A stretch of 64,000 nt of DNA from Carboxydothermus hydrogenoformans Z-2901. GTDB taxonomy: Bacteria; Bacillota; Z-2901; Carboxydothermales; Carboxydothermaceae. Shown in pieces: positions 18,549 through 39,223 of the stretch. The DNA is taken from NCBI RefSeq assembly GCF_000012865.1, contig NC_007503.1, positions 1,900,001 through 1,964,000 on the forward strand, given 5' to 3'. The notes beneath the pieces were generated by a model, which made no database searches, was not told the origin of the DNA, and saw only the letters and a list, made by a program, of their open reading frames with translations. The number at the start of each line of letters is the position of its first letter. Position 1 is the first letter of the stretch. The translations under genes and the position numbers were made by a program.

Positions 18549-19647
18549 AATCTAAAATCCTTAATTTAATCCATCCCGTGGGATATAAAGGCTTCCCTTT
18601 CTCCACCACTATTTTTCGGGTTTTAGGGAAAGGAAAGTTTTCCCGGTATTTTATCTTGGCCCAGTTAATTACTTCCTTTAACTCCTCTTCCGGAAGGGCT
18701 TCTTTTAAAGTCTTACTGTTAAAGCCAGTTCCCCAGCCTAACTGCAAAATTATTCCGTCATTGCTATCCTGAATAAGTTTCTGGTAAAACTTTTTAAGCT
18801 CTTCAAGACCAATTTCCTCATAAAATTTTAGTTCATTTTGTAAAAATTGCCGCTGAACCTCTTTGGCCCTCTCCTGCCAGTTATTAAAAAATGCTTTATT
18901 CACCAGAGGAAAGTTATCATCGTTAAGATACTTTTCCTCTACCTTAAAACTTCCCTGAAGCTTAACTCCCGGTTTAAAACCAATGAAAAAGCTGCTGGTA
19001 GCCTGCTCCAAATCTGCTGTAGATTGCTCTCCAGGTAGAACTTTCCACCGGTAACCACTGGTCGTAAGGCTTAACACCTTTACCTGATAAAGCCCTAAAC
19101 TTTCCTCCCCCAGGGGCAGGCTGTCACCTACCTTAAGAGCACGGAAAAGAGAGTAATTAGGGGTTCCGGTTAAAGCCATTTCCGCTGCTTCGCTTAGTTT
19201 CTCTTTCTTGATCCTTGGATTTTGCAGCCTTTCTTTAATTTTTTGGTTAAAAGTTTCTTTTATTTCGGGTAAATTTATTTTATAGATTAACGTCCTAAGA
19301 GAACCTTTCAAAGAACTTCCGGGTAAATAAAAACCCTGCCCTTCAGCTACAGGGGCTAAAACTTCCGCTTTGCGAATTTTCAGGTCCATTAAAGTTTTCC
19401 TTGAACTGGAAAATTTAAAACGTGGAAATTCTCTGGCCCAGGGATATGACTCTCCCAGAAAAAATCCCGGTCTTTTAACCTTATCCAAAAAATCGTTTAA
19501 CACAAACCTTGGCGAGGTAAATACCCGCTCCATATCGGCAACCACAAATTTTTCTTCTTCTAACGAAATTAAATATTCCAGGGGAGGATATTTTTGACCG
19601 GAACCAACAAAGAGCGGAGATAAAACCTCAATTTCGTATGTTGCCAC
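18547..19647 (-). CDS. csm5: Csm5, type III-A RAMP protein
   Basis: 366 aa. The N-terminal RAMP fold opens YEIEVLSPLFVGSGQKYPPL and has the glycine-rich loop GFYLPGSSLKGSLRTLIYK at about residues 105-123. The C-terminal RAMP-like part ends in FPKTRKIVVEKGKPLYPTGW. Csm5 caps the 3' end of the Csm filament and helps crRNA 3' maturation. Its ATG follows the csm4 stop directly, so the two are translated together. Length is normal for the family. Confidence 0.9.
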   Translation of the reverse strand: MATYEIEVLSPLFVGSGQKYPPLEYLISLEEEKFVVADMERVFTSPRFVLNDFLDKVKRPGFFLGESYPWAREFPRFKFSSSRKTLMDLKIRKAEVLAPVAEGQGFYLPGSSLKGSLRTLIYKINLPEIKETFNQKIKERLQNPRIKKEKLSEAAEMALTGTPNYSLFRALKVGDSLPLGEESLGLYQVKVLSLTTSGYRWKVLPGEQSTADLEQATSSFFIGFKPGVKLQGSFKVEEKYLNDDNFPLVNKAFFNNWQERAKEVQRQFLQNELKFYEEIGLEELKKFYQKLIQDSNDGIILQLGWGTGFNSKTLKEALPEEELKEVINWAKIKYRENFPFPKTRKIVVEKGKPLYPTGWIKLRILD

Positions 19648-20604
19648 TTATATCCCCCCTTTCCAAGGAAGGGTAAAGGCATAACCGTACCGGTATACCG
19701 GATGCTCGGTAAAGTATTTGGGAGTAACATCTACCAAACGTCCCACTGGCTTAAAGCCAAAGACTGAACCCGGTCCAAAGAAACGTACCGATTTTTTTCT
19801 TACCCCCCGGTCAAAACTGCTAAACACATATCCCCCTGACTCAACTAGGGTGTAGGCTTTTACCCCATCTGCAATCTTAAGTAATTCATCTTCCTTAGGA
19901 TAATAATTTGAAAGTAAAAACCTATATTCTCCTTGAAGCGGCCAAGAAAAATCTTCCCGAAACTCTATGGAAAACTGGCCAAAGCCGTAGGTCCTCTCTC
20001 CTCCCAGTCCTTCATCCGCCAGAACTCTTAAAGCTGTTTCAAATTTTGTTTTCCACTCCGGTGCTATTTCATAGAGGAAATATAGATAAATATTTTCCGC
20101 AAAGGTTATACCCGTGCAGTAATAAATGTTGGAACTGGAAGTAATCCGGTCTAAGGCTACCCGAGGAATCTCCCGGCTTTGGTGCCAGTACTCCTGCTTT
20201 ACCGGAAGATATGCTTTCTGAACAACATACCCTTCTCCCGGCCCTTCGCCTTTAGCAATTTTTTCTAAGCTTTCTACGGGTAAGTATTCTATTTTTTTTG
20301 CAGTTTTTACATCCGTAAAATAAGGAGTTAAATCCAAAGTCAAAGGCTTAGGAACAAAATAATATACTTTTTCCCCGGTAACTTGAGCTGGAAAGAGAGA
20401 AGAAAGTTCTAAAACCGGTTTTTCCAATAAAGCTTCGAAAAAGGCCTTCGTCTCCCCAGCCCCATAATAAAGGGAATAAGCATTTAAGAGAGCCGAAAAC
20501 AGCTGGTCGCTTCCCGGCAAGATTTTACTATTAGTTAGATCCCCTGTTCTCCTACCCAGATTTAGAGGGCCTTTAGGCTTAATTAGAGCTATTTTGTAGG
20601 CCAT
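19648..20604 (-). CDS. csm4: Csm4, type III-A RAMP protein (Cas5 group)
   Basis: 318 aa. The N-terminus IALIKPKGPLNLGRRTGDLT followed by SDQLFSALLNAYSLYYG is the Csm4 pattern. The motif GLGGERTYGFGQFSIEF at about residues 200-216 is the glycine-rich RNA-binding loop. A C-terminal segment with DVTPKYFTEHPVYRYGYAF ends it. Csm4 binds the crRNA 5' handle and contacts Cas10 at the base of the complex. It lies between csm3 (13-bp gap) and csm5 (no gap). Confidence 0.9.
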   Translation of the reverse strand: MAYKIALIKPKGPLNLGRRTGDLTNSKILPGSDQLFSALLNAYSLYYGAGETKAFFEALLEKPVLELSSLFPAQVTGEKVYYFVPKPLTLDLTPYFTDVKTAKKIEYLPVESLEKIAKGEGPGEGYVVQKAYLPVKQEYWHQSREIPRVALDRITSSSNIYYCTGITFAENIYLYFLYEIAPEWKTKFETALRVLADEGLGGERTYGFGQFSIEFREDFSWPLQGEYRFLLSNYYPKEDELLKIADGVKAYTLVESGGYVFSSFDRGVRKKSVRFFGPGSVFGFKPVGRLVDVTPKYFTEHPVYRYGYAFTLPWKGGI

Positions 20605-20617
20605 TGGCTTCTCCCCT

Positions 20618-21418
20618 TTACTTCAACAATTGCGGAATATTCTTCTGCATAAGCTCCTCTAAAGACCCCATTACTATCGGTTGAGCGCTAAAGTTTCCGG
20701 TCTCATATTCCTCGCGAGACTTCCAGTAAACTGCTAAATCTTTAAACATAATCTTTCCGTAACCTCGGCTGCCGGAACCTCCGAGATAGTCATCTTCTAA
20801 AAGCTTCATTGCAGTTAATACTTTAGAAAACAGCTCTTTATCTTCTTCCCGCAAAACGTTATAAACCAGTTCAAAGCAAAACTCCGCTCCCCGCGGTACT
20901 CTTTCGGTCTGCCGGGGATTAGCCGCCGAAGTAATCCGGTCAATGGAGTTTTCAAATTTAACCTCGGTCCATTCCAAATCAAGATTGGGCTTAATGTCTT
21001 TAATGCTTTCTTCATCCAAGCAGGCATCCCTGAAATAGAGGCGGGTGGGGGTAGCGTTGGAAATCACCAGCTCAGTCTGATTATCAGCAAGAGTGTATTT
21101 CCCGTGGTTTCTACCAAAGATAATACATACCGGACATTCCGGTTCATTGCAAATATGAATGCGAATTGGTTCAGCACCTTTTTTCTGTAATACCAGTTTG
21201 GTTGCACTCAAATAGCCTTCGTGATTTTCCAGTAAGCTCCGAAGTTTTCCTTTTAAACTGGATCCTGGAATATACGGTTTTCCTTCCTCATCTTTAATAA
21301 CGCTATTGTCAACCCCACCAATTTCAGTATTCCCCTGGGCTCCACCTATATGAAGGCCGGTTAAAGCTTTGATTTTACCTTTAATTACAATTTTTCCTAA
21401 AAGTTTTAACTCTTCCAT
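20618..21418 (-). CDS. csm3: Csm3, backbone RAMP and target-RNA nuclease (Cas7 group)
   Basis: 266 aa. The N-terminus has KIKALTGLHIGGAQGNTEIG followed by GVDNSVIKD. Asp37 in that loop matches the catalytic aspartate that cuts target RNA at 6-nt steps. The glycine-rich loop YIPGSSLKGKLRSLLE follows at about residue 49. A Cys-His cluster (HICNEPECPVCIIFG, about 99-113) is the usual zinc-like site. A second glycine loop (YLGGSGSRGYGKIMF) is near the C-terminus. Several copies form the filament backbone. Confidence 0.93.
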   Translation of the reverse strand: MEELKLLGKIVIKGKIKALTGLHIGGAQGNTEIGGVDNSVIKDEEGKPYIPGSSLKGKLRSLLENHEGYLSATKLVLQKKGAEPIRIHICNEPECPVCIIFGRNHGKYTLADNQTELVISNATPTRLYFRDACLDEESIKDIKPNLDLEWTEVKFENSIDRITSAANPRQTERVPRGAEFCFELVYNVLREEDKELFSKVLTAMKLLEDDYLGGSGSRGYGKIMFKDLAVYWKSREEYETGNFSAQPIVMGSLEELMQKNIPQLLK

Positions 21419-21430
21419 CCCTCATCCCTC

Positions 21431-21865
21431 CTATTCTTTACCGCCATAAGCCCGGTGATAGGCAACTACAGCTTCAAAAAAATCAATAAACCGTTTAAAT
21501 TTCTCATAGCTATCAATCTGGGCCAAAGCTTTATCGGCAATTTTTTGCAAATCTCTCACCTGACTGTACCGCCCAGCAATATACGCAAACTTAGCCCGGA
21601 GTAAATTAACCCGGTAAGGACCGTCGGAATCTTTATAATTAATAGATTTTGCTTCCGTATAAAGATTTCTAATCTGGGAAGTAGTCATTTTAGCCACCCG
21701 GGCTAAAAAACTACCAAGCTTCTCCGCACTTGAAATTAAAAGCTCCCCTTTGGGGTCTTCTATTGGATTTAAAAACTTATCCACTGCTTGCAGTACTTCC
21801 TGGACAGGGTTTTCCTGGTTTTGCTGTCTTCCAGGATTGGCTCTATTATTTTTTCCATTCATCAT
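21431..21865 (-). CDS. csm2: Csm2, small subunit of the type III-A complex
   Basis: 144 aa from ATG 21865. Its first base is the last base of the cas10 stop (TAATG overlap), and GAGGGGG lies about 5 bases upstream, so the longer frame to 21901 is not used. A polar, disordered start (NNRANPGRQQNQENP) precedes an all-helical body with KMTTSQIRNLYTEAKS, AKFAYIAGRYSQVRDL and RFIDFFEAVVAYHRAYG, which matches Csm2. It forms the minor filament along the crRNA-target duplex. Confidence 0.88.
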   Translation of the reverse strand: MMNGKNNRANPGRQQNQENPVQEVLQAVDKFLNPIEDPKGELLISSAEKLGSFLARVAKMTTSQIRNLYTEAKSINYKDSDGPYRVNLLRAKFAYIAGRYSQVRDLQKIADKALAQIDSYEKFKRFIDFFEAVVAYHRAYGGKE

Positions 21866-24081
21866 TAATCCCCCCTCGCTCTTAGTTCTAATTCTGCCCA
21901 CCGTGCCGCCGGTGAAGCTAAAGGATTGATTTCGGTAGTATTGAATACCACCACATCCATAATCTTTTCGCGGAAATAAGTTTGTAACTCCTTCTTAAGA
22001 CTATCCCGGTAACGGCTTAACTGATATACCAGGCGCCACACCTTGGGATAGGATGCCTCCCGTTCGCCAGCATTTAGAAGATTTTTTATACCGTATAGAT
22101 GCTGGATAATTGCCCTGGAACCTCCGCCTTGAACTACTTTCTTAATGTGGTCTTTTAATCCTTGTAACCGGCTAAACTCATCCCAGGTATAAGCCCTGTC
22201 TAAAAAGGCAATCTTATCTTTGCTCCCAGTTTTAGCTTTCTCCTCCAAAAGCTCATAAGCCTCTTGGGCAACTTTAAAGAGAGGATGCTTAAAGTTTGGG
22301 GCAAGCTTGATGGCCGCTGAAAAAGTTAAATCGCGGTTGCCTGCACAGTAAAGGGTAAATTGCCGCCTTAATTTCAAGGCCACCTTGGGCAGTACCGACC
22401 AGCTGCCCACCACAAAGAAATCATCTCCTCCAGCATAAACGGTATAAACCGTATCTCCAAATTCTTTTAACAAATCATTAAAGTATACGCCAAAAAATTC
22501 ACCCATCGCCCTGGATAAAGCTGCTATCGAGGTAATGGTTATTTTATCAGCAAATCCCTCACGGAATAATTTTCCCAGGTTATCCACATCTCCCCGAAGA
22601 ACTCCCCAGGTATCTATTCCTTCACTCTTTTTAGCCAAAACCTCAAACTCGTACGCAGCAGTTTTAGGTGCAAAATAAAAACCCTGACAATTCTTAACTA
22701 CAAAATCATAACTATTTAAAAGTAAATTAAAGTAGTCCTGCTCAGGTTTATCAGAAAATCTAACCTGACGTCCAAGGGCCAGGAAAAGCTCATTTATATT
22801 GCTTATTTCGTTAATACTGCTTTTTTCAACTACTTTTTTCTCCTGTAAAATCTCAGTCCTGGGAAGTTCAGCTCCCATTTCCACAATACTCTGACAGAAA
22901 GAACAAAGCCCTGTTTCGCCAGTTACTTCCCTGCCACAAATGGGACAAATATTATCCGGTGTATCAAAAGGACCAAATATTAAATCTGGTGTCTCTTTTA
23001 TTAGAGTTAAAAACGGTTTCATTTTTTCCCGGTTTAATTCCTGCCCCAAATCATCCCAGCGTTTGGTGATATTTCCCTCAGCCAGGTCGTTTATCGTAAG
23101 CGGAATACTTCCCAGGATAAACTTAAGTTTACCGTTAAAAGCCTGATAAATTATTTTTTCAACTCGCCCTTTTATTTCCTGAAGTTTTTCTAAATCAGAA
23201 TAAGGAAGGAGTAATGTGAAGCGGCCCCCGCCAATTAGAAGAATGCTTGGTTCTAAAAGGCCTAACTCTTCAACCAGATAGAGAGCTATCAGCCGGTTTA
23301 AATAGCCTACTAAAAAAGAACGGCCCCTGAGGTTTTTAGCTGCATTATCCAAGGGAATATCGTACAAGAAGTCCTGAATCCCGGCGATATCGCCACCTAC
23401 CAGTAAGAAATAGGGCTTTTGTAACTCGGAAGCCTGATAATTTTTATTTTTCAAATGCTGGTGGATTTTTTGCAAAGTCGGTTCGGGTATATCTTCCTTA
23501 TAGAGAGCAGCAGCAATAGCAGCAGTAGTTCTGGCATGGTCATAGAGGGAGATGGTAGCCCGGGAGTAGAACGCCGCAGAAGGAATAAGGGTTAAGTATT
23601 TTTGGAGGAGATACAATGTTGCATTGAGATTATTTTTAACTTTTGAAAATTCCTGATTAAAACTATCCCAGAGCTGTTTATAGCCATTGCCATTTAGGGT
23701 TGCTTTTCTTTTATCGGCAACGGGAAAAGGTGGTTCATCAGGTTCATAGAGCTTTAAAGGAATGTACTGTTCTCCTTCCGCTCCCCGGCTTAATTTAATG
23801 CGGGAAAACAGCGAAATCAGCGGTTCGTCGGCAACATTTCCTCCCGGAGATTGATCCTCCCTTTCTCCGGCGGATAGTTTATCGGCAATTGCTAAGATGT
23901 AATCATCTTTTGTTTCAGGGTCATGGTGGTTTGCAACCAGGGCCACCAGCTCTTCGCTGGCAAAGTTATGGTGGACAAAAGTGCCGGATAGTTCCTGGTG
24001 TTTTATTTGTTTATTTTCTGCCCGCTGCCAGAACTTCCCGATATCGTGCAAAAGCCCCGCCCAGTAGATATTTTCAATCAT
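21865..24081 (-). CDS. cas10: Cas10 (Csm1), DNase and cyclic oligoadenylate synthase
   Basis: 738 aa. The HD nuclease site is LLHDIGKFWQRA (His12-Asp13), with a second histidine pair in VANHHDPE. A four-Cys zinc motif (CPICGREVTGETGLCSFC) lies at about residues 379-396. The palm domain has VYAGGDDFFVVG at about 547-558; the intact GGDD predicts cyclic oligoadenylate synthesis. A helical D4 domain ends the protein. On target-RNA binding it cuts ssDNA and makes the second messenger for the CARF proteins at 4.8-10.3 kb. AGGAGGGGG precedes the ATG and lies inside the overlapping upstream ORF. Confidence 0.95.
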   Translation of the reverse strand: MIENIYWAGLLHDIGKFWQRAENKQIKHQELSGTFVHHNFASEELVALVANHHDPETKDDYILAIADKLSAGEREDQSPGGNVADEPLISLFSRIKLSRGAEGEQYIPLKLYEPDEPPFPVADKRKATLNGNGYKQLWDSFNQEFSKVKNNLNATLYLLQKYLTLIPSAAFYSRATISLYDHARTTAAIAAALYKEDIPEPTLQKIHQHLKNKNYQASELQKPYFLLVGGDIAGIQDFLYDIPLDNAAKNLRGRSFLVGYLNRLIALYLVEELGLLEPSILLIGGGRFTLLLPYSDLEKLQEIKGRVEKIIYQAFNGKLKFILGSIPLTINDLAEGNITKRWDDLGQELNREKMKPFLTLIKETPDLIFGPFDTPDNICPICGREVTGETGLCSFCQSIVEMGAELPRTEILQEKKVVEKSSINEISNINELFLALGRQVRFSDKPEQDYFNLLLNSYDFVVKNCQGFYFAPKTAAYEFEVLAKKSEGIDTWGVLRGDVDNLGKLFREGFADKITITSIAALSRAMGEFFGVYFNDLLKEFGDTVYTVYAGGDDFFVVGSWSVLPKVALKLRRQFTLYCAGNRDLTFSAAIKLAPNFKHPLFKVAQEAYELLEEKAKTGSKDKIAFLDRAYTWDEFSRLQGLKDHIKKVVQGGGSRAIIQHLYGIKNLLNAGEREASYPKVWRLVYQLSRYRDSLKKELQTYFREKIMDVVVFNTTEINPLASPAARWAELELRARGD

Positions 24082-26256: not shown

Positions 26257-29200
26257 GTTTCAATCCCAAATTGGTTCCATTAAAACAGGAGGATGATAAT
26301 CATGTTATTAAGCGAATTGCTTGTTTCAATCCCAAATTGGTTCGATTAAAACCTGAAGCAATCCAGAAGTTGGCGGAGGACTTTGAAAGTTTCAATCCCA
26401 GAATGGTTCGATTAAAACTTGGTTTTCCCATACTGGTCGGTCATGTCAGTTTGAGGTTTCAATCCCAGAATGGTTCGATTAAAACCAAAATCACCTCCGG
26501 ACCGCAAAGCAAGGTCGGTGAAGTTTCAATCCCAGAATGGTTCGATTAAAACGTAAGAGTCTATTTAGAGCAGGAAAATGGGTATTTAGGTTTCAATCCC
26601 AGAATGGTTCGATTAAAACGGAATTTAGGTATATCGCTTATTATATTTCTTTCTTGTTTCAATCCCAGAATGGTTCGATTAAAACATTGAAGGACTGGTT
26701 TTCTTCATTAAATTTAGAAGAGTTTCAATCCCAGAATGGTTCGATTAAAACGCATTTGCCAATAAATCAGTAAAGTTAACACCTTGGTTTCAATCCCAGA
26801 ATGGTTCGATTAAAACCATATGGACTGCTTAAACAAGACTATCAGCATGCAAGTTTCAATCCCAGAATGGTTCGATTAAAACGTGGTAGCTGTCGCCATA
26901 GTCCGCGTTTTTCCTGGCGTTTCAATCCCAGAATGGTTCGATTAAAACTTTTTGAACTGACCAGCAGGAGAGTGGATTATTCAAGGTTTCAATCCCAGAA
27001 TGGTTCGATTAAAACAATTGATTAAACAACACGATTTATTGCCAGTTAAATGTTTCAATCCCAGAATGGTTCGATTAAAACCAAAATCTGCGTTTCAGGG
27101 CTGGAAATAATTTTCAGGTTTCAATCCCAGAATGGTTCGATTAAAACAAAGTCGGTGGACCACGGCCGTATAAACGTGGGAGGGTTTCAATCCCAGAATG
27201 GTTCGATTAAAACATTCCACCCGGAGGTGCTGAGAGTTGATATTCTTGAGTTTCAATCCCAGAATGGTTCGATTAAAACAGAGCTGGCGAAAACAAGACC
27301 GAATTGATTGGCAGAAGTTTCAATCCCAGAATGGTTCGATTAAAACCCTACCGTATTTATCTCGTTCTTGGACGTCTTTCTGGTTTCAATCCCAGAATGG
27401 TTCGATTAAAACCATGCCGGCAGGATACAGCTCCCGATGCCGGGTGTGGTTTCAATCCCAGAATGGTTCGATTAAAACAAAGTTGGGTATGTATTGGACG
27501 GTATTCGGCCGTAGTTTCAATCCCAGAATGGTTCGATTAAAACATAAAGACTTTCACAAACCGACAAGGTGAAATTATAGTGTTTCAATCCCAGAATGGT
27601 TCGATTAAAACTTCGCCAGCGGCTTTCTTGGTTTTCTTTTCTTTTACCTCGTTTCAATTCCAGAATGGTTCGATTAAAACCTGATATGTTTAAGCAGTTT
27701 TTAGGGAAGGTTTGGCGTTTCAATCCCAGAATGGTTCGATTAAAACCAGAATATAGTAAATGAATTAGAAGCTAATAAGCAAGTTTCAATCCCAGAATGG
27801 TTCGATTAAAACTTCTACATTATAACCATAATCCTCAAATAATTTTTGTTTCAATCCCAGAATGGTTCGATTAAAACCAGGTTGTGGTCTAAATCCATGT
27901 CTGCGACTATATGTTTCAATCCCAGAATGGTTCGATTAAAACATGGGAGTTTGAGGTAAGCAGGCAGGCGGTAAGGATGTTTCAATCCCAGAATGGTTCG
28001 ATTAAAACTTAGGTGGCTTTAATCCTTCGGCCTGCCATAGTTTGTTTCAATCCCAGAATGGTTCGATTAAAACCCAAGTACAATCAGCGGCTTTTTGAAC
28101 ACCTCGCCTTTGTTTCAATCCCAGAATGGTTCGATTAAAACTACGGTAGACTGTAAAGTTTCCAATTGAAATATCATTGTTTCAATCCCAGAATGGTTCG
28201 ATTAAAACTCTGGTGATGATATGATTTGTCTTTTTGTTACTGAGTTTCAATCCCAGAATGGTTCGATTAAAACCTTAATGCTAACTGCACCTTGTTAACC
28301 CCCTTTTAGGTTTCAATCCCAGAATGGTTCGATTAAAACCTCGCCCCAATCGTGCAAGGTCAATTGGTAAACGTTCGTTTCAATCCCAGAATGGTTCGAT
28401 TAAAACTTTTGTGGAAATGTTGCAAACAGTGAAGGGTGTCAAGTTTCAATCCCAGAATGGTTCGATTAAAACTCCAATCGTAATCTTTCATATATTCACT
28501 TCTTGGAGTGTTTCAATCCCAAAATGGTTCGATTAAAACCCAGTTTAGCATAATATTATTATCTTCTACTGTTCCGCGTTTCAATCCCAGAATGGTTCGA
28601 TTAAAACAAGAAGAAGCCAGGGAGTACTGGGCAAAGTTTATGCGTTTCAATCCCAGAATGGTTCGATTAAAACTTCTTTCTGGTGCTGGGTATCTCATTG
28701 CACTTTTGGGTTTCAATCCCAGAATGGTTCGATTAAAACAGTAAAATAGCTATTTGTACATACAATAGCCCCATTGGTTTCAATCCCAGAATGGTTCGAT
28801 TAAAACTACATGTTTGCTTCTTCATCTTCGACCATCTTAATGGTTTCAATCCCAGAATGGTTCGATTAAAACGAATCATTCAAAAGTAAACAACTTGCAG
28901 AAATTGCTTGTTTCAATCCCAGAATGGTTCGATTAAAACGGTTTATGTAAGTATTAATAATTTGCTGGTAACGTAGTTTCAATCCCAGAATGGTTCGATT
29001 AAAACTGCCATTTTTTATAAAGAATTTTATTCATCTCTTTTGTTTCAATCCCAGAATGGTTCGATTAAAACAGGCAGGTAATGGGTAATGCAGCTTGAGG
29101 AAAAAGTATGTTTCAATCCCAGAATGGTTCGATTAAAACTGAGAAAATTTCTTACGATGAAATAGCAAGAAATAGTTTCAATCCCAGAATGGTTCGATTA

Positions 29201-30138
29201 AAACGAAAACCGCATGACGCAAAAAGAACTGGCCATGCGTCTGTTTCAATCCCAGAATGGTTCGATTAAAACAACACTTTTGAGATTACTACTTCTGTAT
29301 ATTGGAAAATGCAATCCCAGAATGGTTCGATTAAAACAACTTGGCTTGAATAGCGTTACTAAAACAGTTTTCAGGCGCAATCCCAGAATGGTTCGATTAA
29401 AACAACGGGTTCAAGGGAAGTATTAAGCCATTTGAAAATAAGGCAATCCCAGAATGGTTCGATTAAAACAACTTAGATGAAAAAAACAAGTAGTGAAAAG
29501 TGAGTGAAGCAATCCCAGAATGGTTCGATTAAAACAACCATACTGGCCGAATTGTAGAGGTAATTAAAAAAATGCAATCCCAGAATGGTTCGATTAAAAC
29601 AACGGGTTCAAGGGAAGTATTAAGCCATTTGAAAATAAGGCAATCCCAGAATGGTTCGATTAAAACAACACCTCACAAAAACCATCCGGTTTGTTTACTT
29701 CCGAAGCGCAATCCCAGAATGGTTCGATTAAAACAACGATAATCGGGTTAAACAAGCTGTCTATAATTCTCTGGCAATCCCAGAATGGTTCGATTAAAAC
29801 AACTTAACGGGACTAACAAATACACGGGGACAGCTTACATGCAATCCCAGAATGGTTCGATTAAAACAACGTTGTGTATTCTGTCGCTCCTACACCAATT
29901 CTTACTTGCAATCCCAGAATGGTTCGATTAAAACAACGTATATGTCCATCGTGATTTGAACGCTTGAATGACCGCAATCCCAGAATGGTTCGATTAAAAC
30001 AACGTGCCAGCAGCGCCAGCATCACCAGTGGCCACATCAGCAATCCCAGAATGGTTCGATTAAAACAACTGGGACTGCTTTTTTATGTATTGCGTGAGAA
30101 CGCAGATTGCAATCCCAGAATGGTTCGATTAAAACAAC
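26257..30138 (-). CRISPR. CRISPR array 1, about 59 repeats
   Basis: 30-bp repeats with spacers of about 35-39 bp. On the plus strand repeats start GTTTCAATCCCAGAATGG and end TTCGATTAAAAC. On the minus strand they end ATTGAAAC, the usual crRNA handle, and the leader is on the right, so transcription runs leftward. Repeats 1-2 (26257, 26324) carry CAAATTGG instead of CAGAATGG, and repeat 1 has a further change (GGTTCC); these mark the old end. Repeats 3-46 are nearly uniform, with single changes at 27652 and 28511. From 29311 the last 13 repeats are shifted by 3 bp (start GCAATCCC, end AAAACAAC). One spacer occurs twice (29407-29442 and 29604-29639). Confidence 0.97.
29243..29275 (-). repeat. 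33-bp transition repeat of array 1
   Basis: This is the only repeat with both the old left end (GTTTCAATCCC) and the new right end (AAAACAAC). Everything to its left uses the old register and everything to its right the new one, so it marks where the repeat boundary moved. Confidence 0.9.
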
Positions 30139-30462
30139 CCATAATTAATTATAAAAGAAAAAGATTTTTAAAGAAAGAAGAAGTTTACATTTTTCAATGT
30201 TAATATTGGTGCATAGTGGTAAATTTCCACTAAACGCTTAATTCTCAAGGCTTAAAGGCTATTTTTGCCCTTTCGTCGACCTTCCTGGATTTTGGGGGTA
30301 ACCGCAGGTCGACGAAAAAATTTGTATATTTTTTAGTTTATTTGCATAATTTTTCGTTTTACCGGTGAAATTTTGGCCTTATTAAGGCATTTATTCATAG
30401 TATATGCACTTTTTTCGTCGACCTCACTAAGCTAAGTTCAATATTTCACATAAAAGGCATAA
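30139..30462 (-). promoter_or_regulatory. CRISPR leader of array 1
   Basis: AT-rich DNA between the newest repeat and cas2, conserved with 49573-49905. It starts CCATAATTAATTATAAAAG; on the minus strand TATAAT (complement of 30148-30153) lies 10 bp before the array and is a possible -10 box. Three copies of one 12-bp box occur: TTTCGTCGACCT at 30271-30282, its inverted copy AGGTCGACGAAA at 30306-30317, and a direct copy at 30413-30424. Compared with array 2, three extra bases (AAC) sit at the repeat-leader junction and now form the end of the shifted repeats. Confidence 0.85.
30271..30317. promoter_or_regulatory. Leader inverted repeat, array 1
   Basis: Perfect 12-bp inverted repeat TTTCGTCGACCT / AGGTCGACGAAA separated by 23 bp; each arm contains the palindrome GTCGAC. 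A third box follows at 30413-30424. It is a candidate binding site for a regulator or for a host factor that guides spacer integration. Confidence 0.7.
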
Positions 30463-30726
30463 TTAAAGCATATTGGTTTCACCTCCTTTTTGAATACCCA
30501 AAAGCTCCCGGGAAGAATATTTCATGGAACCAAAAATATAAAACAGCACTGAATCCTCATCTTGATTAATTATCCTCGAAAGCTCTCCTTTTAACCGGCG
30601 AAAATTTGCTTCGGTAATTTCTCCTTCCAAAACCGAGTTCTGCACCCAGTAAAGATATTTTCGAGCCGTTTTTAAGACTTTGGCAACTCGTTTTTGATTT
30701 ACGTCATAAACCAGAATGACAAACAA
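30463..30726 (-). CDS. cas2: Cas2, adaptation protein
   Basis: 87 aa from a TTG at 30726 with GAGGTGG upstream; the frame extends to 30753 inside cas1 but the family start is at FVILVYDV. The ferredoxin-like core has the metal-binding Asp of VYDVNQKR (about residue 7), RKYLYWVQNSVLEGEI and DSVLFYIFG. It forms the Cas1-Cas2 integrase with the gene just upstream. It is the last gene of the type I-B operon, and its stop lies at the edge of the leader of array 1. Confidence 0.93.
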   Translation of the reverse strand: MFVILVYDVNQKRVAKVLKTARKYLYWVQNSVLEGEITEANFRRLKGELSRIINQDEDSVLFYIFGSMKYSSRELLGIQKGGETNML

Positions 30727-30727
30727 G

Positions 30728-31720
30728 CTACCACCTCGAAACAAAAGGTTCAAAGGGCTTTTCTCCCAGCAAATGCTTTTCCAGTTTATACAGTTCTAAG
30801 CGAATTAAAAAGCGGTACGACACATCCCTCTTTAATTCCGGATGTTTAATAGTGGTTTTCAATTTTTCTTCAAATTCGGTAATAAAAAGTTTTTTCCCTT
30901 CAGTTGTCAGAGCAAAGCCTTCTAATCCTTTTTCAAAATGCTCTTTTTTAATTTCTTTTCGTCCAATTAAACTAAAAATTGTCCTATCAACAATTATGGG
31001 CTTAAATATTTCGGCAATATCTAAATTTAAGGTAAAGCTTCGAAAATTGGTAGCATGTAAAAAGCCAATCCGCGGATCCAAATGGGTTTTATAAATTTCA
31101 CTAAGGACAGCAGAATAAAGTAAAGAATTGCCAAAACTTATTAAAGTATTTAAATAATTTTGGGGAGGCCGACGGGTTCTTTTTTCATATAAAAAAGTTT
31201 TATCCTGCAAAATTACGTCAAAAGCTTGATAATAGGTTTCCCGGATATTACCTTCCAGGCCTAAAAGCTCATTTGGCTCTTTCGCCTCCGTTACCTTATT
31301 TAGATAGTTCTCAACTAACTCAACGTTACTTTCTACCTCTTTTCCCCGCTGGGCATAATACTTTAATACCTGCAAAATATTGCGAGCACTCCCTTTTACT
31401 ATTGCCCGTCCTAAGAATATTCTCTTACTTTGATCGGAAAAATGCTCCGCCTGCTTTAAAATCATGTAGCCCGAATTATAATGCTCCCGGGGATAAAAAG
31501 TTCCCATGTAGTAGCCGTAATGATTAAAATAATGGAGGATTATTTCGTTCTGGGATAAAAATTCCACCAGTTTCCGATTAAATTCCACTTCACCGAAAAC
31601 AAAAATTTCTCCCACATCTTCCACCGGCAGGTACTTTTTGAGTCCTTCACTTTCAAAATAAAGGGTATTTCCTTTTCGCTGCAGTTTTCCATCCGAAAAA
31701 AGGTAGATAGCCTTACGCAT
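30728..31720 (-). CDS. cas1: Cas1 integrase, type I-B
   Basis: 330 aa. The beta-rich N-terminus (YLFSDGKLQRKGNTLYFE, then PVEDVGEIFVFGEVEFNRKL) and the helical catalytic domain are complete. Active-site residues are visible: Glu in LLGLEGNIRETYY (about 150), His in IGFLHATNFRSF (about 218) and Asp in LNLDIAEIFKP (about 229). It inserts new spacers at the leader end. It is the only Cas1 in the window, so both arrays, and both effector modules, probably depend on it. Confidence 0.95.
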   Translation of the reverse strand: MRKAIYLFSDGKLQRKGNTLYFESEGLKKYLPVEDVGEIFVFGEVEFNRKLVEFLSQNEIILHYFNHYGYYMGTFYPREHYNSGYMILKQAEHFSDQSKRIFLGRAIVKGSARNILQVLKYYAQRGKEVESNVELVENYLNKVTEAKEPNELLGLEGNIRETYYQAFDVILQDKTFLYEKRTRRPPQNYLNTLISFGNSLLYSAVLSEIYKTHLDPRIGFLHATNFRSFTLNLDIAEIFKPIIVDRTIFSLIGRKEIKKEHFEKGLEGFALTTEGKKLFITEFEEKLKTTIKHPELKRDVSYRFLIRLELYKLEKHLLGEKPFEPFVSRW

Positions 31721-31730
31721 TTCTCCCCTC

Positions 31731-32231
31731 CTATGCTACACAAAACTCAAGATAAGCACATTTTTTACAAAAGGGAGTTTTTTGGTACGGCGGGGGCGTC
31801 TCTTGATAGATAATCCGCAAAATGTCTTTCTCCGCTGCAACAAGCTTTGCTTCATCTTCAGGAGTTAATCTTACCTTTTCGCGCTTCTTTTCTTCAGGGT
31901 ACGATAACTCCCCGGCAATTTCGACGCCCCGCCTCTTAAATTCCAGTAAGTAATATAAAAGCTGCATCTTCGATGCTTCTTTAAACTTTGAGCTTTTCTT
32001 TATTTCATAAACCAAAAGCTCCCCGTCTTCCCGGGTAATAAGGTCAATTTTACTTCCTCCAAGAACCATTTCCCTGACCCCCGGCTTCTTACTCTGGGCA
32101 TGAATTACCCTGCCTAAATCCAAAAGTTCATTGTCTTCGTCGGGAGTAATCTTCCGCCCCATAAACCAGACCTGCCGGGGACAAATGTAGTAATACCAGA
32201 TTAAAGTTCCGCCAATGCTAATTTCACTCAT
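31731..32231 (-). CDS. cas4: Cas4 nuclease, type I-B
   Basis: 166 aa, short form. The N-terminal Cys in YYYICPRQVWF and the C-terminal FCKKCAYLEFC give the four iron-sulphur ligands. The RecB-type nuclease core is LVYEIKKSSKF (about residue 74) with an upstream Asp in GGSKIDLITRED. Cas4 trims prespacers and fixes PAM orientation with Cas1-Cas2. It stands 10 bp upstream of cas1. Confidence 0.93.
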   Translation of the reverse strand: MSEISIGGTLIWYYYICPRQVWFMGRKITPDEDNELLDLGRVIHAQSKKPGVREMVLGGSKIDLITREDGELLVYEIKKSSKFKEASKMQLLYYLLEFKRRGVEIAGELSYPEEKKREKVRLTPEDEAKLVAAEKDILRIIYQETPPPYQKTPFCKKCAYLEFCVA

Positions 32232-32315: not shown

Positions 32316-34763
32316 TTATAAAATTTCAAATTCTTCCCGCCCCAGGGTTACCCGTTTAAACCCGGTTTCCAAAGAGTAATAATCTTCAAGGTATTCTAAT
32401 GGTAGCCGGAAAAACGAACCTGCCTGTTCCAATCCCCGGATGTTGCTTTGATTTTTTTCCAAACCCGGGACGGAAATAATATACTGAGCAAGTTTTGATT
32501 TTAGTTTTAAATAGTTTGTCCGCCGTTTTTGGTCATCACTTTCCTGGATTACACCTTTTTTGTACTCTTCCCAGATCAATTTAGCTTCCTCATCAAGCTC
32601 CACAAAGACATCCACATAAAAAGGGATTTCCGTAATTAGTTTAAAATCACTTATCACCGGACTGCCGTCAGGGGCATCGGCAAAAGAAAGATTTAAAATT
32701 GCTTCCAATGTTTTCTTTCCCTGACTGTCGGATAAAAGCTTTTCTGCGGTAATCTTTAAAAAATACCCACCAATTAAATTCCCAAAAGCCTTTTCCTCGA
32801 TTTCCCGGGCTTCTTCCAGTAACTCCCGGGTTTGCTTTAAAAGCACCGGACCGTAAATCCGGGTAGCAAAATCTTTTCCCTCATCGGTAATCAGGTTCAT
32901 AAGTATAACTTCTCCCAGCTCTTTCTGGCCACTACGGTTACATCTCCCTGCTACTTGAATAACCGAATCCAAAGGCCCGGCGTCTCGGATAACACAGCTT
33001 GCATCTAAATCCACTCCCGCTTCCACTACCTGGGTGGATACTAAAACAAAAGGTTTATTTTGCTGGTTTAATTGCTTTATTGCTAAAAGTCGTTGACTTC
33101 TTTCTTTGGGAGTAATGTTGGTTGAAAGATAAAATAAGGGAATCCCTAAATCCAGTTCTTTTATTTTCCGGTAAAGCTCAATGGAAGATTTTATGGTATT
33201 TACTACAATAAGATAAGATTTATCTTTGCTATATTTTTCCTTAAAACTTCGGACAAATTCAGCGATGGTCATTTTTTCCGGCAAATAAGAAAGCTTTACC
33301 CGATTTAATGCCCCAAACATTTCGGCAATTTCTTCTTCCGTCCCTGCCAGCTCAATGCATTCTTCCGGCGAAAAAATTAAAGGTTTCGTTGCGGTCATTA
33401 AAATTACTTTACAGTCAAGCAATTTCACCGCCTGCAAAAATATCTCCCGCACCGCCCCCCAGTATTCAAAAGGAATATTTTGTACCTCATCCAGTAAAAT
33501 TATGCTTCCGGAAAGTTTATGAAATTTTTTAAGAAGCCGATTTTTAAAACCAAAAAAAGTATGAAAGAGCTGGACAAAAGTTGTCACAATAATTTCACTT
33601 TCCCAGCTTTCGGTAAATAAAAGAGCTTTTTCCACTTCAATTTCTTCCTTTTCCACCCGAAAAGAAAGATCCGCTAAATGATGGTGCTTTATAAGGTACA
33701 GGCTTTCATTTTCTGGAAAATCCGTAACCTTAGTTTCTAAAATCCTTTTAATTACCTCATAATTCTGGTCAATAATTGAGGTAAAAGGCAGAGCATAGAT
33801 AATCCTTGGCGTATACCCTTTTTCCCGGGCGATAAGCTCTCGAAGCTTAAAAGCAGCCCCTAAACCTGCCAAAGTCTTTCCACTTCCGGTTGGTGCAGTT
33901 AAGGAAAATATCTCCCCTTCAAAATGCTTTTCTACATTACTTATAACTTTCGCAAATAAATTTTGCCTTAATGTATTTACATAGCTTTTTTCCGCCTTTT
34001 GGGAAAGTTCTTTTTGATATTCCGCCATTACAGAAAACGGAAGTTCTTTCCTTGCAAATTCTTTGAGAGCTTGAGCGGCGCTTTTTTTATCCGAGTCTAT
34101 TAATAATGAATATAAGTACAGCGTTGCAAAGTAAAAAAGAAATCTAATTTCTTCCTCCTCCTCGGTCAAATCCTGATATAAGGTATAAAGCCGGCCAAGA
34201 TAATCCTGATAATTTCGGGTAAATTCCCCAAGGGGCAAATATTTAAATCCGTGTTTTTGCCAGAGCTCTTGATTTTCCCGGTCTATTTCAGGGTTCAATA
34301 AAAGGTCCTCTAACTGCATCTTTAAAATTTCCAGTTTATTTTTTAAACTTTCGTTGTAGACAGCATTTTCCCGCAAAGCTCTTTTGGAAGCAAGATTATT
34401 TAAAGGATGATCAAGATCTCCGTGATGCCTTAAAACAGCCAAAAAAATTAATAAGGCAAGGTACTGGTGAGACCCTTCAATGTTTTCATTAAGAAACTGA
34501 GCCGAAGCCCACACCGCCGATAAAAAAGCATGGTGAGACAGAGGCCCCACCGCTTTTTTATTTACCAGATGGTCCTGAAAGTACGAGGTATATTTGCCAA
34601 AATCATGGCCAAGCCCTGCCGCTTTAAGGCTTTTTAAAAAAGCCTCCCGGTCTAAACCCGGAAGGCCTTGAAACTTTTTTACCATGCTGGCAGTTACTTC
34701 CTGCAGATGGTCTTTTAAGAGCTTTTCTGCACCGGTATCAAAGTGGGAATAATAGACCATCAA
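32316..34763 (-). CDS. cas3: Cas3 helicase-nuclease, type I-B
   Basis: 815 aa. The N-terminal HD nuclease has GLGHDFGKYTSYFQDHL (His53-Asp54). The helicase Walker A is SLTAPTGSGKTLAG (about residues 286-299) and the Walker B is ILLDEVQNIP (about 422). Motif VI is in VIQVAGRCNRSGQ. A C-terminal accessory domain follows. It is recruited to the R-loop made by Cascade and degrades target DNA. Its ATG overlaps the cas5 stop by 4 bp. Confidence 0.95.
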   Translation of the reverse strand: MMVYYSHFDTGAEKLLKDHLQEVTASMVKKFQGLPGLDREAFLKSLKAAGLGHDFGKYTSYFQDHLVNKKAVGPLSHHAFLSAVWASAQFLNENIEGSHQYLALLIFLAVLRHHGDLDHPLNNLASKRALRENAVYNESLKNKLEILKMQLEDLLLNPEIDRENQELWQKHGFKYLPLGEFTRNYQDYLGRLYTLYQDLTEEEEEIRFLFYFATLYLYSLLIDSDKKSAAQALKEFARKELPFSVMAEYQKELSQKAEKSYVNTLRQNLFAKVISNVEKHFEGEIFSLTAPTGSGKTLAGLGAAFKLRELIAREKGYTPRIIYALPFTSIIDQNYEVIKRILETKVTDFPENESLYLIKHHHLADLSFRVEKEEIEVEKALLFTESWESEIIVTTFVQLFHTFFGFKNRLLKKFHKLSGSIILLDEVQNIPFEYWGAVREIFLQAVKLLDCKVILMTATKPLIFSPEECIELAGTEEEIAEMFGALNRVKLSYLPEKMTIAEFVRSFKEKYSKDKSYLIVVNTIKSSIELYRKIKELDLGIPLFYLSTNITPKERSQRLLAIKQLNQQNKPFVLVSTQVVEAGVDLDASCVIRDAGPLDSVIQVAGRCNRSGQKELGEVILMNLITDEGKDFATRIYGPVLLKQTRELLEEAREIEEKAFGNLIGGYFLKITAEKLLSDSQGKKTLEAILNLSFADAPDGSPVISDFKLITEIPFYVDVFVELDEEAKLIWEEYKKGVIQESDDQKRRTNYLKLKSKLAQYIISVPGLEKNQSNIRGLEQAGSFFRLPLEYLEDYYSLETGFKRVTLGREEFEIL

Positions 34764-35506
34764 ATCACCCCTGGCTCTAAAAATAAAATCACATCACCCA
34801 AAGAATCAATCTTAATTGCCGGTACGCTAAATTTACCGCCTACCTTTTTCCCGCCGATTTCATAAACCACCGAAGCCGTAGAGGCTATGGACCGGTCGGG
34901 ATTAAAGGAAAAGGGCATTTTTTCCTTTAAATACCTTAAATCTTCACCATGAAGCGTAGAAAATAAAAGCTCTTCGTCCTTTAAAAGCTCAAGATTCACG
35001 ACGGTATCAACAAAATTTGTTTCTAAAGCTGTCCCCGGGAAGACACCCAGAAAATCAATTTTTGCTAAAAATTCGCTTCGCCCTAAATAAACGGGAAACT
35101 TTGGCCCCAGAGCAAGTTGTTTTGCCAATTCCTCCTGAAAACTCGGGTCATCATGGTAAAAGTATACCCGATAAATAAGTTCTCTTCCCCGCACCGGCAG
35201 AATTATTTCAGTGGGTATCATCGTTGGCCCGCCGGAGCCGTTAACTTCTTTAAGCGTTTTGGTCCGGACAAATTTTACCGTTTGCATAATTTTCCGGACC
35301 GGTGTCATTAATCTTAAGGCATAGTGGGCTTTATTTCCAGTTAAAAGGCTATAATAACTATCTTTCGGTAGCCCCAGCACAGCCGCAATAATTCCCGCCA
35401 GCGTAGTTCTTGCGGGAAAAGCATAGCTTAAGGAAGAAGAGTTGGTATAAAACTTGCGGAAGTGGGCTGCAGGACCGCGAATTTCAAAAACTATTACTTT
35501 CCGCAT
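34760..35506 (-). CDS. cas5: Cas5, type I-B Cascade subunit
   Basis: 248 aa. The family N-terminus IVFEIRGPAAHFRKFYTNSS followed by SYAFPARTTLAGIIAAVLGL is clear. It binds the crRNA 5' handle in Cascade. This makes it the subunit most affected by the altered handles of the newest array 1 spacers. It overlaps cas3 and follows cas7 by 16 bp. Confidence 0.93.
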   Translation of the reverse strand: MRKVIVFEIRGPAAHFRKFYTNSSSLSYAFPARTTLAGIIAAVLGLPKDSYYSLLTGNKAHYALRLMTPVRKIMQTVKFVRTKTLKEVNGSGGPTMIPTEIILPVRGRELIYRVYFYHDDPSFQEELAKQLALGPKFPVYLGRSEFLAKIDFLGVFPGTALETNFVDTVVNLELLKDEELLFSTLHGEDLRYLKEKMPFSFNPDRSIASTASVVYEIGGKKVGGKFSVPAIKIDSLGDVILFLEPGVI

Positions 35507-35522
35507 TGCCTTCAGCCCTTTC

Positions 35523-36464
35523 TTAATAATTTAGAATACTTACCTTAGAATCCCCCAGCTTTTCCGCAAGTAATCGGGCAAAATTCTTTGCTTCCCCGTG
35601 ATAGGTGGTTTTTAGATTATGGTCAAAATACAGTAGAATCTTAGTAATCTTCGGATTATTTTCGGCCAACAAATCAACAAGTTTCCCCGCTTCCAGGGAA
35701 TAATCGGTTATATCCCTCAAACCTTCTTTCGGATTAACTTCAAGAAAGCTTCTAAAATCCCCCAGATAGGTAGTATCGTCTACATACTCCACTCGAAGAT
35801 ACAGCCTTGGATACTGGCCGATTTTACTCCGGGTGGCTAAAAGGGGAATGGCTTTAACAAGTGCCTCATCTAATAAAGATAAGGTTTCCATATCTAATTG
35901 CGTAAACTTTGCCCGGTGCGCCGCGACAATTCCGTGAAAAGCAATTAAAGAGTAATAAAGGCGGTAGTCTTTGCCCATAGTCCCCTGTTCATTACCGCTT
36001 GTACTGCTAAAGCGAGAAGTTATAGTGTTTGATTCCACTAACTCTACTTTGTTTAAAGAATAACCCCAGTTAAACTGAACCGGTCCGGTAAAGGTTAATG
36101 AACTTCCGCCGTCTTCGCTTTTAATGGGCATGGTTGCACCAAAAAGGCGAACATCGACAAGTTTTTCTAATAACACAGGCACATCGTCTTTACTTATGTT
36201 TTTACTTGTTTTACCAAGCAATTTTTCCAGTCTCTCGGTGGCGTTTACCGTTTCTCCTTCAACTTTGGCCACAAATATTTCTTTTCCCTTTTCCTGTAAG
36301 TAATCCCGAACATATCGCTTTAGACGGACATCGGAGACGAGATTGGTTTTAGTTTCATAATCCATCCGCGGCCGATTTTCATCATCGGGATCGCCATTGG
36401 GATTGGTAAGCTTGGCATCGTAAATAAATAAAATTTCACTATTGTTCTTTATTAATTCACCCAT
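35523..36464 (-). CDS. cas7: Cas7, type I-B Cascade backbone
   Basis: 313 aa. FIYDAKLTNPNGDPDDENRP is the signature of the Csh2/Cst2 group. VRLFGATMPIKSEDGGSSLT and the later KIGQYPRLYLRVEY fit the RRM-like fold. Six or so copies coat the crRNA spacer. Its ATG follows the cas8b stop without a gap. Confidence 0.94.
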   Translation of the reverse strand: MGELIKNNSEILFIYDAKLTNPNGDPDDENRPRMDYETKTNLVSDVRLKRYVRDYLQEKGKEIFVAKVEGETVNATERLEKLLGKTSKNISKDDVPVLLEKLVDVRLFGATMPIKSEDGGSSLTFTGPVQFNWGYSLNKVELVESNTITSRFSSTSGNEQGTMGKDYRLYYSLIAFHGIVAAHRAKFTQLDMETLSLLDEALVKAIPLLATRSKIGQYPRLYLRVEYVDDTTYLGDFRSFLEVNPKEGLRDITDYSLEAGKLVDLLAENNPKITKILLYFDHNLKTTYHGEAKNFARLLAEKLGDSKVSILNY

Positions 36465-38405
36465 TTACATCCCCTCCACTTCAGCTTTTTCAACTTTGGC
36501 CCGGGATAAGATTTTCCCGGTAAGATAGCTGTAGCCGGATAAAAGATAAAACACATTTTCCTGTTCCGATAAACTCCACCGGGGAATTTCCCGGTCTAAA
36601 AGCTTTTTCATACTGTTGTAGATTTTCTCGGTACCGGGATTTAATTTTTTGTACTGGAATAATTTCTGGTGTACTTCATTGGCAAAAGAAATAATCCGGC
36701 GTAAGCTCATCCCCTGATAAGTTAGTTTATTTAAAATGGCTTTATTGAGATTACTCTGATGCTGGGCAGAAGCTATTTCCCCTACCAGCACCCCCAGAAG
36801 AAACAGAGCAGCCTGCTGTGGTGTATAGCCCATATCCCGGATGTACTCTAAGTCTTCAGCTTTTAAGTCCAACTCTAATTCCACCGCCTCCACCTCCTTT
36901 GGCAGAATTTCAAGTTCCTGTAAAAATAAATTTAAAAGGTTGGCCCGAAGGCAAGCTTTGGCCAGTTCAATTTCCTTATACTTTTCACTTCCCGGATTGA
37001 CATTAAAACCTTCCTTTGTAAAGGCAAAAATTTTAAAAAGTTCAATATGCTGACGGATGATAAAGCTTTTTTCCACCGGGTGTCCGGTAAAAATGGACTC
37101 AAGTAAGTCTAAAAATTTCCGGTATTCAACACTGTTTTTGCCTTTTTGCTGAGGAATCTGGTAGTAAATGCGGTTTAGGTTTAAAGAAAGTTCCGGCAGA
37201 AGCTGGTTAAAGTGTTTCTTGTAAACTTCATTTACTTTCTGAAAAAGCTGCAGGATTTTAAGAATACGACTGGGGGGTATGTCTTTAATAAGTTTTAGCA
37301 CTTTAAATTCCGCTTTATTTTTTTGGTAAAACAAGAAATTAAAAATTAGCTGATTATAGATTTTCCGGTTTTCAAAATAATCGCTAACCATTTCTTCGTA
37401 CCCGGCAATCTCACTATAACCTTTAAGGTTGTTAAAACTATTATTGGTAAATTCCATCCATTTTTGAAACTGCTGCTTTTTTAAATTTACCGGAAAAAGG
37501 AAACCCGGAATGATGAACAGGTTTAAATTCCCAAGGCGGTTATTGAACTTATTTTGAATAAAGCTTTCAGCAATCAATAGTTTTTTATAACATTCGGGAC
37601 ACAGTGAGTAGTTTTTATAGAAGTTCTTCTTATCGTGATTGCTGGCATAACCTATTTTATCGGTGATATAGTACTTAAATTTTAACTTAGTAGTATCGGA
37701 GGTTATTGGACCAAAATTTCCACAAGCGTGGCATACCCCCTCTTCCCCGGCAAAAATATCAAAAACTTTTGCTGCTTCTACTTTTTCCTGGTACTCCCTG
37801 TAATCTACCCCTTTTTGCCCATCAAAATAAATGGTATATAGTGCTACTTCTTTTTCACTTAGGCCAGTCTGATCTTTAATCCATTTACTAAATTCTTTAG
37901 CTACCGCCTGGGCTAAATTTTTACCTTTAGGATTTTCTTTGATTAAGTCAAGTAATTTGCTGCCTTTGTATCCTGGCAGCATCTCCAGGTTCAAAATGTA
38001 GCGATAGCGGTTCTCGGCCCCCTCCTTTACGCCGGTATCAAAAAAGTAAAGGTCTAAAACTTTTTGCACATTCTGGGCTAACTTCGACCCCTCGGGTAAA
38101 ACCTCCAGTAAATTGGGAAGCGTTTGGGATACTAAAAATGATAGATTGTTTGTCGATAGATACCACTGGGGACTACTGCTGCCGTCGGCATTTCCTACCC
38201 AGAGATATTCTCTTTCCGTAACTCCGGGAGTAATTTCCTTGGGAGTGATTTTCAAAGAGTTATTAGCAGTGGCAAAATCAATTATTACTACGTGCTGTTT
38301 TTTGCCACCCTGGTCTTCATCAATTTCTAAGCAAAGGTTTTCCAAAAATCCCCCCGAAGCGTGTTCTGTGGCAAGTCTCCCCACTTCCCGCACTGCTTCT
38401 AACAC
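36465..38405 (-). CDS. cas8b: Cas8b (Csh1-like), type I-B large subunit
   Basis: 646 aa. A four-Cys zinc-binding region is spread over VCHACGNFG (about residues 223-231) and SLCPECYKK (about 267-275). The family-typical C-terminal part has YTPQQAALFLLGVLVGEIAS, which marks the Csh1 group. It recognises the PAM and recruits Cas3. It starts at 38405 with GGAGG upstream and lies 71 bp after the operon cas6. Confidence 0.9.
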   Translation of the reverse strand: MLEAVREVGRLATEHASGGFLENLCLEIDEDQGGKKQHVVIIDFATANNSLKITPKEITPGVTEREYLWVGNADGSSSPQWYLSTNNLSFLVSQTLPNLLEVLPEGSKLAQNVQKVLDLYFFDTGVKEGAENRYRYILNLEMLPGYKGSKLLDLIKENPKGKNLAQAVAKEFSKWIKDQTGLSEKEVALYTIYFDGQKGVDYREYQEKVEAAKVFDIFAGEEGVCHACGNFGPITSDTTKLKFKYYITDKIGYASNHDKKNFYKNYSLCPECYKKLLIAESFIQNKFNNRLGNLNLFIIPGFLFPVNLKKQQFQKWMEFTNNSFNNLKGYSEIAGYEEMVSDYFENRKIYNQLIFNFLFYQKNKAEFKVLKLIKDIPPSRILKILQLFQKVNEVYKKHFNQLLPELSLNLNRIYYQIPQQKGKNSVEYRKFLDLLESIFTGHPVEKSFIIRQHIELFKIFAFTKEGFNVNPGSEKYKEIELAKACLRANLLNLFLQELEILPKEVEAVELELDLKAEDLEYIRDMGYTPQQAALFLLGVLVGEIASAQHQSNLNKAILNKLTYQGMSLRRIISFANEVHQKLFQYKKLNPGTEKIYNSMKKLLDREIPRWSLSEQENVFYLLSGYSYLTGKILSRAKVEKAEVEGM

Positions 38406-38476
38406 CTGATCACCTCCCTGTAAAATTTTTAATTTTAATTATAAAAATAGGTACCAAAAAAATTTTTCCAGTAAAT

Positions 38477-39223
38477 TTACTCCACAAAACCAAAGCCCAT
38501 ACTGTTCTTTTCCCCAAAGCCTGCATAATAGCCCAGGCTTATTAACTCGGGATTTGTTTTAATTTTAAAAGGAGCACAAAGTCCACGGATTTTCTGGTCT
38601 TTATAAGTTATTAAGCGGGTAGGAAGTTTAGTTTGAAAATGCCTTTCATCGAAGGCAAAGTCGAAATAATCTATCCGGGGTTCGCAGCCGTAGTAAACCA
38701 GGTATTTGTTTTTAAGGTTGTTTAAGAGCTTTTCCTTGTATAAGGCTTTATCTTCAACGTAGGACAGATAGGTAGGAGTGGCCTTCTCCTGACTTTTTAT
38801 CGCTAAAACCAATGGTGACTTTAAAGTAAATAACTCTTCATCGGTAAAGTTTCTAAGAGGAATTGCCGCGATTTCTATGATACTTACCGGTAAAGTAATG
38901 ATTTTGAAGTTTCGAAGAGCCCAAAGACCAGATGTTAAATAGTCAATAAACTCCGGCAGGGGAGAAGATACGGTAAAACTTGCCGTACCGGGGAAAACGA
39001 TAATTCCTTCTTTTGTAGTTTTATAATTGGTAAAAGAAAGCGGGGAAAAAGTAAAAAACTTAAATGTTTTCTTGCCCTTGCGAAAACCAATATCATGGAG
39101 AAAAGTAGCAAGTTTTGCCGACTCTACTCCTAAACCCCGGTAGATTAGGGCTGTCAAAGCGTGTTGATAGTTGTAAGGTAGTAAGGCCTTACTTCTAACC
39201 TCGAATTTTATCAGCGCTCGCAA
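38477..39223 (-). CDS. cas6b: Cas6 pre-crRNA endoribonuclease, type I-B locus
   Basis: 248 aa, a paralogue of the type III-A Cas6. It has ALIKFEVRSKALLPYNYQHA at the N-terminus and AGFGEKNSMGFGFVE as the C-terminal glycine-rich loop. TYKDQKIRGLCAPFKI parallels HYRDQKILGYLAPFTV of the other copy. It heads the I-B operon. Because the repeats of the two arrays differ by one base in the loop region (AGAATGG against AGATTGG), the two Cas6 proteins may or may not prefer different arrays. Confidence 0.92.
   Translation of the reverse strand: MRALIKFEVRSKALLPYNYQHALTALIYRGLGVESAKLATFLHDIGFRKGKKTFKFFTFSPLSFTNYKTTKEGIIVFPGTASFTVSSPLPEFIDYLTSGLWALRNFKIITLPVSIIEIAAIPLRNFTDEELFTLKSPLVLAIKSQEKATPTYLSYVEDKALYKEKLLNNLKNKYLVYYGCEPRIDYFDFAFDERHFQTKLPTRLITYKDQKIRGLCAPFKIKTNPELISLGYYAGFGEKNSMGFGFVE

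Follow-up and report, generated by a model that had tools for sequence, protein, structure and literature searches.

The stretch of the Carboxydothermus hydrogenoformans Z-2901 genome analysed here (the window, 64,000 nucleotides) carries two CRISPR arrays together with type I-B and type III-A cas genes (Table 1). The type I-B locus comprises cas8b/Csh1, cas7b/Csh2, cas5b, cas3 and cas6 along with cas4, cas1b and cas2, and nearly all of these pass their NCBIfam cut-offs, Cas5b lying slightly under its own cut-off and over the general Cas5 one. Array 1 adjoins the adaptation genes, and about 45 bp of its leader are identical among four arrays from two species. Only one Cas1 is encoded in the genome, and therefore both arrays were presumably served by the same integrase. 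One tool divides an array of the Z-2901 genome into two (PMC4869251).

Array 2 serves as an internal control, since none of its 84 repeats is shifted in the manner described below for array 1. One of them (44939-44968) has an internal 2-bp insertion, making it 32 bp long, that is unshared by any newer repeat and is thus a later private mutation. Between 44409 and 46000, blocks of two and three spacers are tandemly duplicated and one further spacer is duplicated at a distance, which are signs of recombination inside the array.

Two isolated repeats lie outside the arrays. The repeat GTCTTAATCGAACCAATCTGGGATTGAAAT stands alone upstream of the csm operon (24610-24679, minus strand), accompanied by some 30 nt of unique sequence, by a repeat stub of 9 nt (GTTTTAATC) and by a hairpin that is rich in G+C and resembles a terminator; to judge from this layout, the element could be a mini-CRISPR or a CreA-like ectopic repeat, and as such a candidate guide for regulation. 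One repeat at 54927-54956 (minus strand), GTTTTAATAGAACCATTGTGGGATGGAAAC, belongs to the other repeat family of Carboxydothermus. Its leader looks deleted, because the sequence abutting it is one that in the sister species (genome G002) sits about 150 bp further upstream.

Table 1. Features of the window that bear on the repeat register of array 1
Feature	Position	Strand	Remark
Type III-A csm genes and second cas6	17740..24081	-	Possible co-users of the arrays
Array 1, R1-R45 (oldest part)	26257..29204	-	Original register, 30 bp each; script alignment
Array 1, R46 (hybrid repeat)	29243..29275	-	33 bp; original distal end plus extra GTT (AAC on the + strand)
Array 1, R47-R59 with their spacers	29311..30138	-	13 repeats in shifted register, 30 bp each; 30 invariant columns
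Spacer between R52 and R53	29670..29707	-	Protospacer in congeners; TTA flank in best match
Extra AAC (GTT on leader strand) at leader junction	30136..30138	-	Without counterpart in three homologous leaders
Array 1 leader region, between array and cas2	30139..30462	-	Repeat-proximal ~45 bp identical in four arrays
Adaptation genes cas2 (30463-30753), cas1b (30728-31720), cas4 (31731-32231)	30463..32231	-	Sole Cas1 of the genome
Type I-B effector genes cas3, cas5b, cas7b, cas8b, cas6	32316..39223	-	NCBIfam matches
Array 2, 84 repeats	44006..49572	-	Original register; homologous leader; internal control

Repeat register of array 1

A script alignment of all 59 repeats of array 1 separates two types of equal length. 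On the window strand, R1-R45 read GTTTCAATCCC...GATTAAAAC, ending in AAAAC, and show a few point variants, while R47-R59 read GCAATCCC...AAAACAAC and are identical in 13 of 13 cases; the invariant block of the latter spans exactly 30 columns, with variable bases on either side. R46, between the two types, runs from GTTTCAATCCC to AAAACAAC and has both ends. The alignment thus bears out the preliminary description of this DNA, which had reported a 3-bp register shift in the 13 leader-proximal repeats, a length of 30 bp for both types and a single 33-bp repeat. Shifted and unshifted copies, whose intermingling would have spoken against that reading, are nowhere interspersed among the 59 repeats. 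Later copies have the repeat core displaced by 3 bp and remain 30 bp long, and mean spacer length is likewise the same in the old and the shifted part of the array (36.4 versus 36.4; p = 0.92). Chance or an assembly error is a very unlikely source of the shift, because the pattern is seen in 14 consecutive repeats as well as at the leader junction.

The exchange of bases is not quite the one first proposed. According to the preliminary description, each new copy took AAC and dropped GTT; the gain of AAC holds, but the loss of GTT does not, since it predicts TCAATCCC where all 13 repeats have GCAATCCC. The net change on the window strand is the loss of TTT with the G retained, corresponding to GAAAC becoming GC on the leader strand, where the old repeat reads GTTTTAATCGAACCATTCTGGGATTGAAAC and the new one GTTGTTTTAATCGAACCATTCTGGGATTGC. 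All 13 new repeats end in ATTGC in this orientation, whereas a pure slide would give ATTGA. One base therefore differs from a pure 3-bp slide, and one further base event is needed.

No shifted repeat occurs among the 84 repeats of array 2 or in the arrays of G002, and no second array that could have been its source was found in the Z-2901 genome. A scan of genome contigs, which may leave out very near genomes, did not return the exact shifted repeat, and among 398 genomes of the phylum it appeared in two single matches only, both being chance spacer ends in normal arrays.

The register shift itself is already known, having first been printed in 2007. Grissa, Vergnaud and Pourcel (PMC1892036, Fig. 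5) showed array NC_007503_3 of Z-2901, with 59 units, and reported that the last 13 repeats are modified, with three bases missing from one end and AAC added to the other. They used the array to support polarised insertion and guessed at a duplication of three spacer bases, or at stuttering, as the origin; the section of that paper concerned with the array gives no fixed-length reading, no comparison with the leaders of relatives and no consequence for the crRNA handle. Added here are the leader comparison with relatives, the single Cas1, the spacer lengths, the TTA flank and the analysis of the 30-bp cut. What the array can reveal, as a natural test, about the control of repeat length has not been drawn out, as far as the literature searched is concerned.

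The leader junction

As the preliminary description had it, the leader of array 1 joins the repeat as AAAAC-AAC-CCATAATT and that of array 2 as AAAAC-CCATAATT. About 45 bp, up to ATTATGG, are identical in the leaders of array 1, array 2 and both homologous arrays of G002, and the extra GTT (leader strand) is missing from the last three of these. The insertion is thus derived and local, because three leaders match that of array 1 but lack the GTT, a result that supports the 3-bp AAC duplication previously proposed for this junction. The extra GTT is best read as a tandem duplication.

Spacers and their targets

The spacer at 29670-29707 matches a dinB-type DNA polymerase gene in the congener G001 (36/38), in G002 (33/38) and in the host's own copy (32/38), and the G001 gene is a homologue of a Z-2901 gene with matches to DNA polymerase IV-type families. 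To judge by these matches, the spacer was sampled from a relative's chromosomal gene or from an element carrying that gene. A TTA directly adjoins the best protospacers of this shifted-part spacer and of two array-2 spacers, so that the presumed PAM rests on three spacers; the genome searches covered the two congeners, G001 and G002. Phage records gave weak, chance-level matches only, and exact 20-24-base patterns from six shifted-part spacers had no match in viral contigs. None of the 13 spacers in the shifted part starts with AAC or TTA, as repair of the handle or PAM register would entail.

Also within the shifted part, the spacers at 29407-29442 and 29604-29639 are identical, with two other spacers between them, so that either one protospacer was acquired twice or recombination took place.

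The last base of the repeat

Base 30 of the 33-bp template is an A, and the shifted repeats carry a C. Three accounts of this C remain: a first cut at 29 bp, an A-to-C mutation, or a deletion of AAA. With a 29-bp cut in the first event, the C would be the first base of the new spacer, kept as base 30 of the repeat and copied onward; with a 30-bp cut, a separate A-to-C change would be needed.

The last repeat base of the E. coli type I-E system is PAM-derived. An equivalent origin here, with a 29-bp ruler and a C supplied by every protospacer, is ruled out, since base -1 of the best protospacers, available for three spacers only, is the A of TTA.

In G001, the last base of the repeat, which belongs to another repeat family, flips along two arrays. 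In one (C10) it is G twice, T 11 times and then G again; in the other (C3) it is T in 95 repeats and C in the oldest. These C/T/G flips, as supporting evidence only, suggest a weak distal border at which one spacer base can become fixed in the repeat.

How repeat length is set

During integration by Cas1-Cas2, the stretch between the two cuts becomes the new proximal repeat, and what remains stays with the distal copy. How repeat length is held constant in this process has been learned chiefly from engineered mutants, and these implicate elements inside the repeat. For array 1, the best-supported reading, to which a probability of roughly two-thirds may be assigned as a whole explanation including the predicted damage to the crRNA handle described below, is that a length of about 30 bp was measured from the leader edge after the GTT duplication. 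The duplication would have arisen between the leader and the first repeat; with Cas1-Cas2 keeping its first cut at the leader edge, GTT would have been absorbed into the repeat, and the second cut would have been set about 30 bp inward, by fixed length and not by a fixed distance from an inner repeat motif. The first event on the 33-bp template, with a second cut at 29 or 30 bp, would have left R46 as the distal copy of 33 bp and R47 as the new, shortened repeat, whose 30-bp unit every subsequent integration would have copied. A repeat with both ends, such as R46, is what is expected of the distal copy of a first integration on a 33-bp template.

The strongest argument, which is independent of how R47 arose, comes from the integrations that followed. 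There were 12 after R47 (11 if the duplicated spacer unit came by recombination). Each made its cut 30 bp in from the leader edge, which places it 5 bp beyond the inner TGGG; this fits a leader-anchored length and not a ruler in the repeat interior. The distance from TGGG, taken here as the presumed ruler element, is 8 bp in the old register versus 5 bp in the new one, and the three older-spacer bases that later repeats would inherit under a fixed 8-bp inner distance are not seen. Repeats measure 30 bp from the leader edge both before and after the GTT insertion, with the first event possibly at 29 bp. The terminus of the attacked strand has changed from GTTT to GCAA, and terminal sequence is thus not the guide, apart from the G, which is kept.

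The main rival supposes two indels: the GTT duplication would first have yielded 33-bp copies, by an inner ruler or by full copying, and a deletion of AAA in R47 (GAAAC to GC) would then have produced the 30-bp form that was copied on. This explains the terminal C exactly, without a base substitution, and takes R46 as the full 33-bp form, but it requires that exactly 3 bp were independently deleted from the one leader-proximal repeat in the interval between two acquisitions, leaves just one 33-bp repeat and still has 12 later cuts 5 bp past TGGG, so that a fixed inner distance fails afterwards anyway; we consider it unlikely. Less probable still is a cut directed by local sequence, with the integrase favouring, inside a loosely bounded window, a G on the attacked strand, and with constant length as a by-product. 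A G does stand at the attacked end in both registers (GTTT... and GCAA...), and a guanine preference has been reported for type II-A (PMC6895254), but the sole G that the 33-bp template offers in this region, the original end at 33 bp, was passed over when R47 was made, and twelve later events all fell at exactly 30 bp beside varying spacer sequence.

The origin proposed in 2007, a duplication of the last repeat together with three bases of the new spacer (PMC1892036), has little to recommend it as an account of the AAC. A spacer origin of the extra GTT is unlikely because it sits between the leader and the newest repeat; spacers enter at the far side of the leader-proximal copy, one integration cannot place spacer bases leader-side, and the leader comparison favours a tandem duplication. 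Import of the shifted block by recombination, the shift having happened in the array of another strain, is barely credible: blocks of repeat variants within a G002 array do suggest exchange inside arrays, but R46 is a hybrid in which the two registers meet in place, a source array was not found in the Z-2901 genome, the congeners or the species genomes searched, and the event would merely be relocated to another strain.

A length measured from the leader edge is kept short of proof by the extra base event, by the retained G and by the fact that this is one natural case. At base 30, where C is found, a pure 30-bp ruler would give A, and this further event counts against it; the G at the attacked end in both registers means that a terminal preference may contribute, and the case comes from a single lineage. 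The earlier claim that repeat length is a ruler set from the leader side stands insofar as 30 bp are kept from the leader edge while the core has slid by 3 bp. Its corollary, that the inner repeat sequence is irrelevant, goes too far, given the retained terminal G and the inner ruler elements described elsewhere (PMC6895254).

Those published rulers, of types I-E, I-B and II-A, use inner repeat elements, and a steric range from the first cut and a guanine preference are also allowed for (PMC6895254). In type I-B of Haloarcula hispanica and in type I-E, as summarised there, it is likewise distance and not terminal sequence that sets repeat length; however, their anchors are internal to the repeat, with the cut typically 8-10 bp beyond, whereas in array 1 the distance from TGGG went from 8 to 5 bp and that from the leader edge stayed at 30 bp. 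The type II-A system of Streptococcus thermophilus (PMC6895254) resembles array 1 in that the first cut is fixed by the leader-repeat junction, but there the second cut shifts by as much as is inserted upstream of the ruler element, in contrast with the insertion at the leader edge of array 1, which left the copies unlengthened.

Consequences for crRNAs and significance

In related type I-B systems, Cas6 cuts 8 nt from the repeat end, and the expected 8-nt repeat-derived 5' handle is here AUUGAAAC. Were Cas6 still to cut between GGG and AUUG, 8 nt from the old repeat end, the crRNAs of R47-R59 would carry AUUGC plus three spacer nucleotides in place of AUUGAAAC, and for such a crRNA the PAM, which lies beside the DNA border of the spacer, would be off register by 3 nt. 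In the shifted copies, the base stem predicted for the repeat disappears (-7.0 to -1.9 kcal/mol), and in the type I-B system of Haloferax most handle changes abolish interference (PMC4326828). The 13 newest spacers may thus be poorly usable in type I-B interference, as a prediction from this analysis; the type III-A (csm) system, which has a Cas6 of its own, could be affected differently.

The significance of the array is tempered by its description in 2007 and by the fact that rulers as such are established. It nevertheless constitutes a natural experiment: the leader edge moved 3 bp against the repeat core, the 13 integrations that came after are recorded, and the cell has a single integrase and an array to serve as control. 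This natural record speaks for measurement from the leader edge. It also predicts mis-registered crRNAs from the 13 newest spacers. It may even be, as a tentative proposal, that learning has become uncoupled from use in this organism: a 30-bp ruler anchored at the leader would go on copying the shifted repeat, and PAM-selected spacers would still be written into the array, while their crRNAs, 3 nt off, would be read poorly or not at all.
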